From the IMG/VR virus record IMGVR_UViG_3300025151_000272, positions 1-25,350 of that record: a stretch of 25,350 nucleotides of DNA. One strand, written 5' to 3'. A program made the position numbers and the translations under genes. Below are positions 11,587 through 17,851 of this stretch, in pieces. Under the pieces are notes generated by a model. The model worked only from the letters and a program-made list of their open reading frames with translations. It was not told where the DNA came from and did no database searches. This DNA comes from a virus. Every line of letters begins with the position of its first letter. Position 1 is the stretch's first letter.

Positions 11587-12200
11587 TACACCACCTGATC
11601 TACGTCAAGGCCAGAACTAACAATGGCACTTCCGCAAAATGCACGACCCATAACTATAGGTATTGGTGTGCCAACTTGATTTACATTATTAATCCCACTA
11701 AAACTAAAGTTTTGCAGTTGATTTGCTTCATTCATGCTAGGAATATCTGGTTGTGGTGAAAGCATTTCTGCTGCACCAGAAATCATCATTAATGCACCAA
11801 ACTTTTTTAGTGTTGACGCAACACCTATTGGACTAGTAATACCAAAAGTACCTATAGACCAAGATCCTGGTATTAAAAATCCAGCACCTAATAGTAAAGC
11901 TCCTGTTAAAAACCTTCCAAATCCTCTACCAGCACCTGTAATTATAGGTGCTATTGAAAAAACTTCTTTTGTTCCTAAAGGTATAGCTAAATCAGTTATG
12001 TTATCTTCTCCAATTTCTTCCTTGCCAACTTTTACTTTATATACAACTCCATTTTTATCATTATCTATTATCCATTTCTCAAGTCCCTTAAAATTTACAA
12101 ACAAAGCCTTAAGTGCTTCCGTAGGGGTAGCAACATCAAAGTAAAAAGTACCTTGACCTAAAAACTTTTTTAGTTCTCCGTAAACTTTAATTTTTTTCAT
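11586..12200 (-). CDS. I: Tail assembly protein I
   Basis: A 204-residue homologue of lambda gpI. Residues 1-75 look like a ubiquitin/MoaD-like fold: MKKIKVYGELKKFLG, ATPTEALKAL, GKEEIGEDNITDLAIPLG. The middle (about 85-145) is Gly/Ala-rich and hydrophobic (ITGAGRGFGRFLTGALLLGA), also typical of gpI, followed by a Pro-rich end. In lambda the protein is needed for tail tip assembly but is scarce or absent in the finished virion. The start lies 14 bases inside the K gene, and the stop overlaps the J start by one base, giving the same tight K-I-J coupling as lambda. Confidence 0.88.
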   Translation of the reverse strand: MKKIKVYGELKKFLGQGTFYFDVATPTEALKALFVNFKGLEKWIIDNDKNGVVYKVKVGKEEIGEDNITDLAIPLGTKEVFSIAPIITGAGRGFGRFLTGALLLGAGFLIPGSWSIGTFGITSPIGVASTLKKFGALMMISGAAEMLSPQPDIPSMNEANQLQNFSFSGINNVNQVGTPIPIVMGRAFCGSAIVSSGLDVDQVV

Positions 12201-12900
12201 GTTTTAACACCTTTGCTGTACTTTGAATAAAGTAGCCACCATAAACATCTCTACTAGATAGCCTACCTTGTACATGATGTAAAATCACGTTATCTCCTAA
12301 ATAAATTGCAGCATGATTAGGTACATCAGCTTCTAAATGCATCAATACTACGCATCCATATTGTATCTCTTTTAAAGGAATTTCATAGAACCCTTCTTTA
12401 TTAAAATTATCTAAATACATATTTTCACCTTTATCCCACCATTTATCTCTTCTAAAATAATCGTTTAATTGAATATTAAATTCCTTTTTATAAAAATCTC
12501 TAACTAAGGTATAACAATCAACAACCCCATGAAAAAACTGCCTACCAACATAAGGTAATTCATAACCAGTTGGTCGCCAATCTCCCCACTTTTCAGTATG
12601 TGGGTTAACAATAAACCATTGCTTTCCTGTTTTCTCACAAGCAGCTTTATCTGCATAACTAGGGTAGTGGCTTGTATTAGGATGACTATGAATAACTGCT
12701 GTTATTTCACCTTGTTCTTCTGCTTTAATATAATCATCTGGATCTAAAATAAATTGTTCATCAGGAGTTTCTGCAAGATTATTGCATTTATAATATCTTT
12801 CTTTACCTTTAACAATATGTACTAAGCCCACACTTTCTCTAGGACTTTCTTCTTTAGCGTGTTGCAATGCTAATTCTTTTATATTTTCTGTTAACTTCAT
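12187..12900 (-). CDS. K: Tail tip hydrolase K, JAMM plus NlpC/P60 domains
   Basis: A 237-residue two-domain protein. The N-terminal domain has the full JAMM metalloprotease signature: Glu22, then IHSHP with His71 and His73, then Ser81 and Asp84 in the H-x-H-x7-S-x2-D spacing. The C-terminal domain is NlpC/P60: Cys129 in VVDCYTLVRDFY, His196 in NHAAIYLG, and a third polar residue around His208-His209. In lambda-like phages K is thought to cleave peptidoglycan peptide links or process the tip during infection. Length matches lambda gpK closely. The start overlaps the L gene end by 4 bases (ATGA type). All expected catalytic residues seem present in both domains, so both activities may be retained. 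Confidence 0.9.
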   Translation of the reverse strand: MKLTENIKELALQHAKEESPRESVGLVHIVKGKERYYKCNNLAETPDEQFILDPDDYIKAEEQGEITAVIHSHPNTSHYPSYADKAACEKTGKQWFIVNPHTEKWGDWRPTGYELPYVGRQFFHGVVDCYTLVRDFYKKEFNIQLNDYFRRDKWWDKGENMYLDNFNKEGFYEIPLKEIQYGCVVLMHLEADVPNHAAIYLGDNVILHHVQGRLSSRDVYGGYFIQSTAKVLKHEKN

Positions 12901-13790: not shown

Positions 13791-14140
13791 TATGGTATTG
13801 CCACCTCTTCAAAAATTGCAGTTATAGTTTTTCTGTTTGCAACAGGAATAGAATTATTCCAACTTTTGCATTTATATTTAGAAGATGAAGAAGCATAAGG
13901 TGCAGTCCAATCAAAAGCTTCACTTCCTTTTCTAGCTTTTAAAAAAGTATTTATAGTATTTGCTTGAGTTGTTGTTAAATTGCTAAAACTTAAATCCCAT
14001 CTAGCCAAATCTTGATTTAATCCAAAAACAACAGATTTAACATAACCACTACCAAACTGCACTTCTCTTACAGTCGGACTATGTCGTTCTGTCGCATTAA
14101 AGTCAGGTTGTATATTAACCTCAGAATCCCAACTAGCCAT
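13790..14140 (-). CDS. M: Minor tail protein M
   Basis: A 116-residue member of the lambda gpM family (Phage_min_tail). Typical elements are the early PTVREVQFGSGYVKSV strand pair, LARWDLSFSNLTTTQANTIN and FLKARKGSEAFDWTAP, all in the usual order, with length close to lambda gpM (109). In lambda it joins the distal end of the tail tube complex, forming a ring above L. The ATG at 14140 lies 8 bases within the end of the tape measure gene and has the clearest ribosome site in the window, AGGAGG at 14154-14149, which itself lies in tape-measure codons. Confidence 0.88.
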   Translation of the reverse strand: MASWDSEVNIQPDFNATERHSPTVREVQFGSGYVKSVVFGLNQDLARWDLSFSNLTTTQANTINTFLKARKGSEAFDWTAPYASSSSKYKCKSWNNSIPVANRKTITAIFEEVAIP

Positions 14141-16220
14141 ACAGTAAACCTCCTGGTCTTTGTTCTTGTACTAATTGCTGTTGAACCGCAGCAGCAATAG
14201 CTTGTCCTAATTGCCTACTTCTATCATATTCGCCTTCAACAGAAGTACCATCAGCATTTACAGAAACATTCACGACAGTACCACCTCCTCCATGTGCAAT
14301 AACTCCAAGTTTTCCATCTTTACCACGTTTTAGCGGCATGATACTTTCGCTCCCTTTTTCTCCCATTAAGCCAATTCCGTTCTTAAAAGGAAAAATTGTG
14401 GGAGAGTCAATTACGCCCCCTTTGTAGAACTGTTGTATCCCATTAGCACCATAAACATTTCCATTCGCATTTGTTGTCTTTTTTTTACTAGAAAACAAAC
14501 CTTCAAACCAGCCAGTAAATGGTTTCATTATTGTTTGTTGTATTGCAATACGAGCCATGCTTTGAATAATTGATCTTGCTAAATCTTGAAAAGCAAGTTT
14601 TCCTGTCATTACAAAATTAACTAAGGTATCTTCCATTTTTTTAAATGCATTAGATACTGCATCAGCTACTGATACCGAAAACTCTTTAATTGAATCTTTA
14701 TAACTTGTTAAACCAGCCTTTGTTCCTTTTAAAAAGTCATTAACTTTCTTTTTATTTTCTTCTAAAGTTTCATCTACACTTCCAGAAGCGGAACCTACGT
14801 CAGGTTTAAACTCAGGAAATAAATCTTCTATTGTATATTTACCCTTACCTTTAATAATTTTTTCGTATTCAGTACCAGCTACTAAAGCCTTGCCAAATTC
14901 TTTTGTTTTTTTAATAAATTTGTCGTACATTTTGACGGCAAAATCTGCAACACCTGTAAGAAAACCGAAATTATCTGCAAAAAATTCTTTAACTTGTTTT
15001 ATCATTAACTGAGAAATAAGTTTTATTTTTTCAAAAGCATTTGCAAACTCAACAACTAATTGTTTTACGGTAGTTTGATTTTCATTAAACCAAGAAACTA
15101 ATTTGGTAATTTGATCTTGAAATTCAGCACCTAAACCTTGAAAAAAAGTACCATAATTTTCTTTAGCAGTATCAAGTGCAAGTTTTAACCTTTCACCAGC
15201 TTTTTCTGGAGATGAACCAATAGTTTTTGCAACTTCATCATATGTTTGTACTTGTTTCTGTGAAAATTTTACAAAGTCTGCAATTGTAACTTCTCCAAGT
15301 TCAAATGCTTTTGATAACTCAGGTAATGTTCTACCTGTAGCTTCTGCAAATTTTGCTACGGCTCCAGGGAGTCTTTCTCCAATTTGCCCCTGCATTTCTT
15401 CTGCCGATACCTTACCTTTTGACAGCACCTGAGTAGTCGCTCTAATTAAAGCTTGTAAATCTGCTTGACTACCACCAAAGGCAACACCAGCAGAAATTAC
15501 ACCTCTAAATATATCCTCTGTTTCTTGTAAAGTTAAATTATTAGCTTTTGCAGCAGCACTAATTTTAGAATAACCATCTAAAGTATCTAACAAATCAACG
15601 GTATAATCCTTACTAACTTGTCTAGCAATTTTTAACGATTGATTATAGTCTTCTTGTGTATCGCTAACAGCCCCTAACGCAGTCTTAGCTAAATTTAACC
15701 TTGCAGAATAAGAAGCGACTTCAGATGAAGCTTCTCTTATTGGTCTAATTATCATATTTCCAGCTAATGCCCCTACCCCTGCCCCTGCCAAAGGCATACC
15801 AATCATTGTACCTATGCCCATGCCAACTACACTACCAGCTAAAGCATCACCACCTAATAAAGCAGAACCACCAACTGCCGCAGCAGCTTTACCAAATTGA
15901 CCGCCACTTCTTCCAGTTTTATTTAAGCTTTTGAGTCTCTTTTCTGCTCTTTCTATCTCTCTCGTAAATCTTCTATATTCATTTGATGCAATACGAGTAT
16001 TATCTCTTAATTCACGCATTGTAAATACAGATGCTCTAAGTTCTTTTTCTGATATATCGCTAGACCTAGCTAATTTTGCTGTACTGTTTGCTAATTTTTT
16101 AAATTCTAAATCTGCTGGTCGTGTAGCTTGTTGTAGTTTTTTTACACTACTTGATAAACCTTTAACTTGTTCAAGGCCGCTAATAATAGCTTTAATCTTA
16201 AATTCAGTTTGTGATGCCAT
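14133..16220 (-). CDS. H: Tail tape measure protein (lambda H type)
   Basis: A 695-residue tape measure protein. The N-terminal 100 residues are charged and helical (LEQVKGLSSSVKKLQQATRP). A Gly/Ala-rich hydrophobic segment spans about 108-165 (AAAAVGGSALLGGDALAGSV and GIGTMIGMPLAGAGVGALAG). The conserved tape-measure N-terminal domain follows, about 165-365: QADLQALIRATTQVLSKGKV and SAEEMQGQIGERLPGAVAKF, a hallmark of this family. The rest is helical spacer plus a lambda-family C-terminal domain (AFQDLARSIIQSMARIAIQQ then FYKGGVIDSPTIFPFKNGIG). At about 0.15 nm per residue it would set a tail near 100 nm, shorter than lambda's (853 residues). An ACGGAG ribosome site precedes the ATG at 16220, which lies 2 bases beyond the GT stop. 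Confidence 0.92.
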   Translation of the reverse strand: MASQTEFKIKAIISGLEQVKGLSSSVKKLQQATRPADLEFKKLANSTAKLARSSDISEKELRASVFTMRELRDNTRIASNEYRRFTREIERAEKRLKSLNKTGRSGGQFGKAAAAVGGSALLGGDALAGSVVGMGIGTMIGMPLAGAGVGALAGNMIIRPIREASSEVASYSARLNLAKTALGAVSDTQEDYNQSLKIARQVSKDYTVDLLDTLDGYSKISAAAKANNLTLQETEDIFRGVISAGVAFGGSQADLQALIRATTQVLSKGKVSAEEMQGQIGERLPGAVAKFAEATGRTLPELSKAFELGEVTIADFVKFSQKQVQTYDEVAKTIGSSPEKAGERLKLALDTAKENYGTFFQGLGAEFQDQITKLVSWFNENQTTVKQLVVEFANAFEKIKLISQLMIKQVKEFFADNFGFLTGVADFAVKMYDKFIKKTKEFGKALVAGTEYEKIIKGKGKYTIEDLFPEFKPDVGSASGSVDETLEENKKKVNDFLKGTKAGLTSYKDSIKEFSVSVADAVSNAFKKMEDTLVNFVMTGKLAFQDLARSIIQSMARIAIQQTIMKPFTGWFEGLFSSKKKTTNANGNVYGANGIQQFYKGGVIDSPTIFPFKNGIGLMGEKGSESIMPLKRGKDGKLGVIAHGGGGTVVNVSVNADGTSVEGEYDRSRQLGQAIAAAVQQQLVQEQRPGGLLYG
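14149..14154 (-). promoter_or_regulatory. Strong ribosome binding site for M
   Basis: A perfect AGGAGG on the minus strand, 8 bases before the M start codon. It lies inside the last codons of the tape measure gene. Most other starts here have weak or no such site, so M may be translated at a higher rate or independently. Confidence 0.8.
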
Positions 16221-16222
16221 TA

Positions 16223-16555
16223 TTATTTCTCCGTATCCTTATTAAAAACTGCTAAAGCTGCTTTTTCCATAATTTGAATTCCTTCAAGCATACTTTTTAC
16301 ATCTTTCACATAGTATATACGACAAAACCATTCAAGTACATCATATTTTAGACCAATTACACCACCCATAGTTACATTCCATTGAGTTGTCATCCTGGTA
16401 AACATAACTACTATTTCCCAATTATCTTCATAAACTTCAAAATAATCTTCTTGTTTAGGCTTTGGGAAATTTTTGACTCCGAGGGCGATGGCATCATCAT
16501 AAGATTCATCTTTAACAACACCTTTACCAGCCCAGTACTCAGCAGCCTCCCTTAG
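16223..16555 (-). CDS. T: T-like frameshift extension of the tail chaperone (DUF1799-like)
   Basis: A frame of 110 codons is open from the slippery site to the TAA at 16225-16223, in the -1 frame relative to G. It begins LREAAEYWAGKGVVKDESYD, continues DDAIALGVKNF and contains DNWEIVVMFTRMTTQWNVTM followed by GGVIGLKYDVLEWF. The W...F....TQW.V..GG..GL.Y pattern matches DUF1799, the usual T-like partner of the G chaperone. No good start codon or ribosome site exists at its front; the first ATG is at 16405 and would delete half the region, including ENW-like residues. I therefore read it as the second half of a G-T fusion of 218 residues (108 + 110). In lambda gpGT binds tape measure and tube proteins to start tail assembly. 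Confidence 0.85.
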   Translation of the reverse strand, partial: LREAAEYWAGKGVVKDESYDDAIALGVKNFPKPKQEDYFEVYEDNWEIVVMFTRMTTQWNVTMGGVIGLKYDVLEWFCRIYYVKDVKSMLEGIQIMEKAALAVFNKDTEK

Positions 16556-16878
16556 TTTTTTGCCATTGCATCATCAAGCATTGTTAATAATGCTTTAACA
16601 GTACCTCTTACAAAATGGGTATCTTCACACCATTCTTTTAATTCTTTTTTTGAAAAAGGAATAACATTGCCAGATTCATCTTGCATATCATCCCAACCAA
16701 CAACTGTACCTTCTAAAAGGTTTCCATCGCCTATTTGGACAAGTTCTTCTAATGTTTTGCGTCCTACTTTTTTAAAATGGGCTGTATATTCCATTGTTCC
16801 AAAAGAACCACCATCTTCTGGATCAGAAATAGTTACAGGCCATTTAATAACCTTATTGGACTTTTTTATTAGGGGCAT
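16552..16878 (-). CDS. G: Tail assembly chaperone G
   Basis: A 108-residue protein beginning MPLIKKSNKVIKWPVTISDP, followed by EDGGSFGTMEYTAHFKKVGR and VVGWDDMQDESGNVIPFSKK. The layout of a WPV.V..P.DGG strand, F.A.F strand, then VGW..V.DE.G..IPFS and a C-terminal helix (FVRGTVKALLTML) is that of small tail chaperones in siphophages. It ends exactly at the slippery heptamer, so most ribosomes should make free G and a minority the G-T fusion. It lies between the tail tube and tape measure genes, as in lambda, and is separated from the tube gene by 40 bases with a repeated hairpin element. Confidence 0.85.
   Translation of the reverse strand: MPLIKKSNKVIKWPVTISDPEDGGSFGTMEYTAHFKKVGRKTLEELVQIGDGNLLEGTVVGWDDMQDESGNVIPFSKKELKEWCEDTHFVRGTVKALLTMLDDAMAKN
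16555..16561 (-). promoter_or_regulatory. Programmed -1 frameshift slippery heptamer
   Basis: On the minus strand the last sense codons of G read GCA AAA AAC TAA. This places the heptamer A AAA AAC (X XXY YYZ) immediately before the stop. Slipping back one base re-pairs both tRNAs on AAA AAA and continues with CTA AGG GAG in the T frame. Lambda uses a different heptamer for G-GT. No clear pseudoknot is visible downstream; the following sequence is GC-richer than its surroundings and includes GGGAGG. Confidence 0.85.
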
Positions 16879-16918: not shown

Positions 16919-17851
16919 TTATGTGAAAGCAAGCGAAAATTCATTATTAGCCGCACTTGGTGTAGCCATAAATGGTATGTCTAACATAATAATTCCATCC
17001 GAATCCCCATACTCTGGAGCAGAAAAATCAGTTTGTGGACAGCTACAAGTAATGATGTTTCCAGCACCACCATTATGTCTCCAGGTATTTGTTCCAGTAC
17101 TGCTACCTTCTGCATCTGTAAAAAAGTTATGTGCAGATAAAGCTGGCATTTCAACTGACAAAGAACCAGAAGGTGATCTTTCAGTTATTATTACACTTTT
17201 GCTACCACCAATAAGTTCTCTATAAATAACATTATTGTTCATATCAAATGACCAATTCTGCAATACGCCAGAATAACCAAATATAGAAAAGTTATCAGTG
17301 TTAAGAGAATTAACGATAACAGGTTTAGCTTGGTGACTAAATGTTGTTGTAGGTAAAGCTGCATCAGTAATTGTTCCCTTTATACCAACCATATTAAAAG
17401 TTATGGTAGGAATTTCAGAAACCGCCAAATTTATAGAAAAAGTTCCTCGACAACCCGAAATCTTATGTAAGACCCCATCATAATTACACCAAATTGTACA
17501 ACTACCAAAATCAGATGACTCAGGTGCATAAGTATTAGAAGTAGAAGATACAGTTGTAAGTGCTAATCCAGAACTTTCTAAAAGAGGAGAATATTTTGGA
17601 GCAGTTCCAGCCGTCCCGCTACCTGCCATTTCCACAGTTATACTTACTTCTACACGTTGGTTAGCTAATAAAACTTCTTGGTTACCAAGGTATGGTCTAA
17701 TTGTTTCTCTACTAACTTCATCGCTAACAATTGGTGTAAGTTCAAGTGAAGTTACTTGTACAGCATTTGCACTACCAGTAGGAGTGGTTGACGCATTATA
17801 ACTAGCCTCGCTTTTTACGAGTATAGTTTTTAGCTTTGAGTTCTTAGCCAT
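16919..17851 (-). CDS. Major tail tube protein (lambda V-like)
   Basis: A 310-residue beta-rich protein in the lambda V position. It begins MAKNSKLKTILVKSEASYNA and contains ELTPIVSDEVSRETIRPYLG, EVSITVEMAGSGTAGTAPKY and SGCRGTFSINLAVSEIPTIT. This is typical of the tail tube family with a paired first strand and a repeated tube domain (Phage_tube_2 as I recall). Length is somewhat above lambda gpV (246). The final 60 residues (ITCSCPQTDFSAPEYGDSDG) contain a second FSAPEYGDSDGIIML-type strand set, so a full second half of the fold is likely. It is flanked on both sides by copies of the same intergenic element, which suggests separate control of this abundant protein. No clear ribosome site precedes the ATG. 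Confidence 0.87.
   Translation of the reverse strand: MAKNSKLKTILVKSEASYNASTTPTGSANAVQVTSLELTPIVSDEVSRETIRPYLGNQEVLLANQRVEVSITVEMAGSGTAGTAPKYSPLLESSGLALTTVSSTSNTYAPESSDFGSCTIWCNYDGVLHKISGCRGTFSINLAVSEIPTITFNMVGIKGTITDAALPTTTFSHQAKPVIVNSLNTDNFSIFGYSGVLQNWSFDMNNNVIYRELIGGSKSVIITERSPSGSLSVEMPALSAHNFFTDAEGSSTGTNTWRHNGGAGNIITCSCPQTDFSAPEYGDSDGIIMLDIPFMATPSAANNEFSLAFT

Follow-up and report, generated by a model that had tools for sequence, protein, structure and literature searches.

In phage lambda, the tail assembly chaperones G and GT are made in a ratio of ~30:1. Each of them binds the tape measure protein, while the tube protein is bound by T (PMC5009743). For T1-like Klebsiella phage Solomon, the authors report a programmed frameshift associated with the chaperone (PMC8407766). 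The g-t genes of two haloarchaeal viruses carry the heptamers A AAA AAC (HCTV-2) and G GGA AAC (HCTV-1) (PMC5009743). Thus, the kind of system considered here, a lambda-type G/GT frameshift, is already known.

Here, a comparable locus is analyzed in the window, by which is meant the entire stretch of 25,350 nucleotides of viral DNA. The locus very probably encodes tail assembly chaperones as a pair of the lambda type, with one message delivering both G and GT through a -1 frameshift. This reading is built on the observed gene order, the geometry of the -1 frame, the slippery heptamer, the absence of a start for T, conservation throughout the family, and constraint at the level of nucleotides. 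What is inferred is that slippage happens, how often it does, and what G and T each do. What sequence comparison adds to the known system is a family-wide demonstration for T domains of the DUF1799 type, together with a strict rule that places an Asn-type heptamer adjacent to a stop codon. In the literature searched, one paper mentions DUF1799 in connection with phage, and it does not mention frameshifting there.

Layout of the locus

All features of the G/T locus lie on the minus strand (Table 1). Profile matches give the gene order as tail tube, G, T, and tape measure, with a GGAG at 16232-16229 preceding the ATG of the tape measure gene. Elsewhere in the window, positions 12187-12900 encode a single protein with JAB-like and NlpC/P60 domains, comparable to tail tip proteins of the lambda gpK type.

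Table 1. Features of the G/T locus and its neighbors, in coordinates of the window.
Feature	Positions	Strand	Evidence
G, tail assembly chaperone, 108 aa	16552..16878, stop included	-	ORF; homologues match PF08748 Phage_TAC_4 (11/18); phrog_313; tube and tape measure neighbors
T, DUF1799 domain, -1 frame, 112 codons plus stop, without own start	16223..16561	-	PF08809, E=2.7e-12; phrog_680, E=5.1e-21; 61 relatives (first scan)
Slippery heptamer A AAA AAC	16555..16561	-	Sequence; AAAAAAC, GGGAAAC or AAAAAAT in 109/109 non-redundant relatives
Zero-frame stop TAA, flush with heptamer	16552..16554	-	Sequence; flush in 107/109 relatives
Sole interval for a -1 shift joining G to T	16552..16570	-	Six-frame reading
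GAGGCTGCTGAG: early T codons with constrained synonymous sites; 5' arm of stem-loop in relatives	16538..16549	-	Codon-identity excess 0.49 and 0.37 at two GAG codons
Weak stem-loop (-2.8 kcal/mol) corresponding to the one downstream of the heptamer in the family	16526..16546	-	Not significant in window (percentile 0.16)
Possible larger stem-loop common to the window's clade	16475..16547	-	-22.7 kcal/mol (80 nt from stop), z -1.5; 5 close sequences
Tail tube protein, gene upstream of G	16919..17851	-	PF18906 Phage_tube_2, E=5.7e-23
Tape measure protein, gene downstream of T	14133..16220	-	PF20155 TMP_3, E=3.3e-23; PF09718, E=8e-23

The locus was first noticed in a reading made from the sequence alone, without database searches. 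Its coordinates were right, as was its account of the end of the G frame, which reads ...ATG GCA AAA AAC TAA, with the heptamer flush against the stop. Two details need correction. That reading had the -1 frame opening exactly at the heptamer and running for 110 codons. The frame actually opens nine nucleotides upstream, at 16570, directly after TGA TGA (16576-16571), and a count from the slip site gives 112 sense codons (AAA AAA CTA AGG GAG GCT...) before TAA at 16225-16223. Because the TGA TGA closes the T frame upstream, any shift from G to T is confined to 16570-16552. This interval contains the A AAA AAC heptamer. A recount of the products, 108 amino acids for G and 106+112 = 218 for the predicted GT, agrees with the sizes originally given.

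Identity of G and T

The sequence-only reading had seen a DUF1799-like signature in the -1 frame. The match of T to the DUF1799 profile indeed scores 47.2 bits, above the cut-off (a gathering score of 26). Its predicted fold (pLDDT 81) matches viral models named tape measure chaperone; against the fused chaperone of Klebsiella phage Solomon, the TM score is 0.68.

For G, the assignment comes from relatives. The G of the window by itself matches no profile, and its predicted model is poor (pLDDT 68). Among 18 aligned homologues, however, the 11 that match Phage_TAC_4 do so with E-values as low as 9e-28, and G homologues also match phrog_313, a tail assembly chaperone; calling G a tail chaperone was therefore sound. 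A natural fusion of G and T is represented by phrog_17368 (213 aa), where the G of one relative (L080) maps to residues 13-107 and its T to 107-213. Foldseek against the PDB returned nothing for the G or T models, and sequence searches of solved structures found nothing convincing.

In the inspected records, G and T are annotated separately, or T is omitted. In the phage records (L065-L074, L390-L397), T either goes unannotated, is shortened by an internal start, or bears the name "tail length tape measure protein." The G of S-LBS1 is annotated as an ABC-transporter ATPase, and the PHROG names of phrog_569, phrog_680, and phrog_17368 carry this same tape measure label.

Conservation of the junction in relatives

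Relatives were collected by seven protein-based scans, six covering viral contigs and one covering bacterial genomes; ten phage records were added. Together, these gave 377 loci with a readable junction, of which 109 were non-redundant after those more than 90% identical were removed. The heptamer lay outside all of the search patterns used to find them. A search of phage records at the DNA level found no near relative of the window.

A heptamer of the -1 form XXXYYYZ was present in all 109 loci: A AAA AAC in 101, G GGA AAC in 7, and A AAA AAT in 1. Two chemically different heptamers, AAAAAAC and GGGAAAC, thus occupy the same place. In 107 loci the heptamer is flush with the stop of G, which is TGA in 62, TAA in 42, and TAG in 3. 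The two exceptions are L258 (349-361), where the stop comes 3 nt later, and L071, which is Serratia phage ZDD2 (1411-1429), where it comes 9 nt later. A first pass read the junction of L063 as AAAAAAC TGA, and a second pass left it unread; the junctions of L077 and L216, checked by hand, fit the rule.

The first residues of T are always KKL or GKL, with the Leu codon being CTG or CTA save for exceptions that use CTC or TTA. In L071 and L258, T still starts Lys-Lys-Leu, the Leu codon being CTC. As these two keep the Leu without a flush stop, constraint on the Leu may be unrelated to the stop.

How much weight can a single junction bear? The 10-mer AAAAAACTRA is not rare in the window (2 found versus 0.88 expected), and one sequence alone is therefore weak evidence. 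In the other large ORFs of the window, in-frame XXXYYYZ heptamers account for 0.6% of codons, and in-frame AAAAAAC or GGGAAAC for none of 6556. At the level of sequence comparison, it is the conservation across 109 non-redundant loci that settles the reality of the junction. The sequence-only reading had predicted that the A-run and the T frame would be conserved in relatives, and had named a heptamer that was not conserved as evidence that would count against it. The heptamer was conserved in every one of the 109, with G GGA AAC replacing the A-run in seven.

This conservation also speaks to the possibility that the frame break is an artifact, either because G and T are really one ORF divided by a homopolymer error in sequencing or assembly, or because T is a decaying remnant. 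The break does, of course, fall within a run of six A's, and a fused G+T profile exists. However, the same break recurs in 377 loci of independent metagenomic origin, as well as in isolate genomes and phages such as S-CBS1, phiES15, HK639, and RC1; sites with GGGAAAC are among them. As for decay, T is conserved at the protein level, with an invariant TQW motif. Either form of artifact is scarcely credible.

The run of six A's might alternatively cause RNA polymerase to slip, so that mRNAs with an extra or missing A would be made and the fusion would come from edited transcripts. Six A's is short for polymerase slippage, however, and the seven non-redundant relatives with G GGA AAC have no run longer than three. 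Further, C is the last base of the site in 108 of the 109 loci, which fits re-pairing by tRNAs and is unneeded for a polymerase. Slippage by the polymerase is, on these grounds, highly improbable.

Farther out among relatives, the pattern loosens. The sequence AAAAAAC TAA is kept in the more distant Drexlerviridae swan01 and Dhillonvirus CS16. In distant Klebsiella phages, the heptamer is imperfect: Webervirus PWKp14 has A AAA GTT TAA, and ER4 has CAA AAG CGC TAA. At these two loci, L391 (1279-1291) and L393 (1369-1381) respectively, the G/T layout is kept with the perfect heptamer absent. They suggest that other slip sites or mechanisms may be used there.

Nucleotide-level constraint and the start of T

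An overlapping function in the RNA predicts that synonymous sites at the junction should be constrained. To measure this, identical codons were counted between pairs of loci that share the same amino acid. For T Lys1 and Lys2, encoded as AAA, the excess of identity was 0.52, compared with 0.09, 0, and -0.03 at other Lys codons. The last two codons of G (-2 and -1) gave 0.48 and 0.49. Glu codons 5 and 8 of T (GAG; 16549-16547 and 16540-16538) gave 0.49 and 0.37, with other Glu codons near 0. In this part of the window (16526-16549), the constraint on these two fixed GAG codons exceeds what the weak local stem-loop would explain.

These data bear on whether T is simply a separate gene, translated by re-initiation or coupling just past the G stop from a non-standard start codon, possibly aided by the GGGAGG at 16551-16546. 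That GGGAGG does directly follow the stop in the window, and GenBank records give T as a separate ORF that starts later. The annotated starts, however, are scattered at non-homologous places inside the domain. As the sequence-only reading had noted, T has no start of its own in the window: ATG, GTG, and TTG are absent from 16570-16552 and from everything before an ATG at 16405, which is codon 53 and lies within the DUF1799 domain. A conserved start for T in homologues had been named as another finding that would speak against frameshifting. Near the junction, start codons in the T frame are absent in 92 of the 109 relatives and not conserved in the others; an ATG with a good Shine-Dalgarno (SD) sequence occurs in one locus only. 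Nor would a separate gene explain why Lys1-Lys2 must be AAA AAA. A separate T gene is therefore very unlikely. Independent initiation of T, polymerase slippage, and homopolymer error were each tested, and each was rejected on the evidence given above.

Candidate stimulatory elements

Across the region in relatives, folding is best in the 60 nt that follow the heptamer (mean z -1.10 versus about -0.6 elsewhere; p = 0.002, which is indicative only, as the sequences are related). When all hairpins of a locus are ranked, a stem-loop starting 5-9 nt after the heptamer falls in the top 5% for 73% of 79 loci; among distant loci, this holds for 14 of 23. Its arms vary by lineage with pairing kept. They are GCCGCCG/CGGCGGC in most, GCCGCTGTAGA/TCTATAGCGGC in cyanophage S-LBS1, GCCGCCCTT/AAGGGCGGC in L077, GGCGGTT/AACCGCC in Yersinia phage YP10S2, and GGCCACTG/CAGTGGTC in the sister clade L247-L258. 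In an alignment of 46 sequences, 90.5% of cells in the 7-bp stem-loop are paired and both partners have changed in two pairs; since its arms consist of GC repeats, however, sliding it by +3 scores nearly as well. Better evidence for the stem-loop than this alignment comes from distant phages, where it recurs with different sequences. Upstream of the heptamer, 71% of relatives have an SD-like energy of -5 or below, compared with 17% of control positions.

The window itself has little of this. An SD-like motif upstream of its heptamer is absent (+0.6 kcal/mol), the 60 nt downstream show no folding advantage over shuffled sequences (z +1.3), and its counterpart of the stem-loop is weak. Frameshifting here may therefore be low, or may lean on the stop codon. 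A stimulatory RNA element is not, in the strict sense, required for a pair to count as lambda-type G/GT chaperones. The larger, 80-nt fold in the clade of the window has 93% of cells paired in its five close sequences. It is consistent among them, but is without two-sided changes, and is therefore not claimed as a stem-loop.

Proposed mechanism

In the mechanism proposed, most ribosomes would finish G at the TAA. A minority would move one base backward on A AAA AAC, the Lys and Asn tRNAs re-pairing on AAA AAA, and would then read through the DUF1799 domain to give a GT of 218 residues. GT would thus be produced in the window, most likely by about one ribosome in tens, as in lambda; it is from this analogy that the G:GT ratio is estimated. 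If lambda is the model, the tape measure protein would be coated by G, both free and as part of GT, and T would recruit the tail tube subunit. In a system of this type, GT would be a low-level product, held in a set proportion to G and required for assembling the tail. Three things are counted against a -1 frameshift here: the stimulators are weak or missing, A AAA AAC reportedly performs poorly in E. coli, being much less slippery there than A AAA AAG (PMC5009743), and the heptamers of some distant relatives are imperfect. Overall, the interpretation that the sequence-only reading gave of the locus is supported.

With the stop flush against the heptamer, slippage could precede or follow translocation. 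This raises a tentative idea, which we consider rather unlikely, that the stop is a working part of the signal. Here, the tRNAs, already translocated to the E and P sites, would slip with the stop in the A site, and competition between release factor and slippage would set the G:GT ratio. Such a role for the stop would account for both the flush rule (107 of 109) and the choice of a heptamer of the Asn type, which works poorly in E. coli. The alternatives are a conserved Leu at codon 3 of T, or simply that G has to terminate immediately. Adding eRF1 reduces frameshifting at the HIV-1 heptamer when a stop comes after it, which shows that reading of the following codon can come ahead of the slip, whereas the Rous sarcoma virus site, which naturally has a stop as its next codon, gave no sign of such a late event (PMC4373837).

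The family offers material to address this. Its more than 100 naturally occurring versions of a bacterial frameshift site, in which a stop directly follows the heptamer, are a ready test set, and could be used to ask whether release factor competes with slippage. DUF1799 (PF08809) is also identified as a T domain of tail chaperones predicted to be made by -1 frameshifting in a large group of phages, a domain that in the inspected records is truncated, unannotated, or labelled as tape measure protein.

Comparison with known systems

The frameshift site of E. coli dnaX resembles this family in having an A-rich heptamer and, as in most relatives of the window, a downstream stem-loop and an upstream SD-like motif. 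It differs in that dnaX uses A AAA AAG, whereas the window has A AAA AAC, no SD-like motif, and a weak stem-loop. Rous sarcoma virus gag-pol shares the stop codon directly after the heptamer, its natural intercodon being a stop (PMC4373837); the virus and its genes are unrelated, the ribosomes are eukaryotic, and the stimulator is a pseudoknot. HCTV-2 and HCTV-1, likened here by heptamer, have the same two heptamers as this family in their g-t genes, but have archaeal hosts.

For phage Solomon, the fused tape measure chaperone of 210 residues (A0A873WVD6) is matched by the model of T; unlike this family, the related Webervirus PWKp14 lacks the perfect heptamer. Lambda G/GT shares the order tube-G-T-tape measure, an overlapping T in the -1 frame that lacks its own start codon, a slippery heptamer near the end of G, and a G of about 100-140 amino acids. 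The slippery sequence, as the sequence-only reading had recognized, is different. Lambda has G GGA AAG with a stop 15 nt downstream, whereas here A AAA AAC stands flush with the stop, T is a DUF1799 domain, and homologues of G match Phage_TAC_4.
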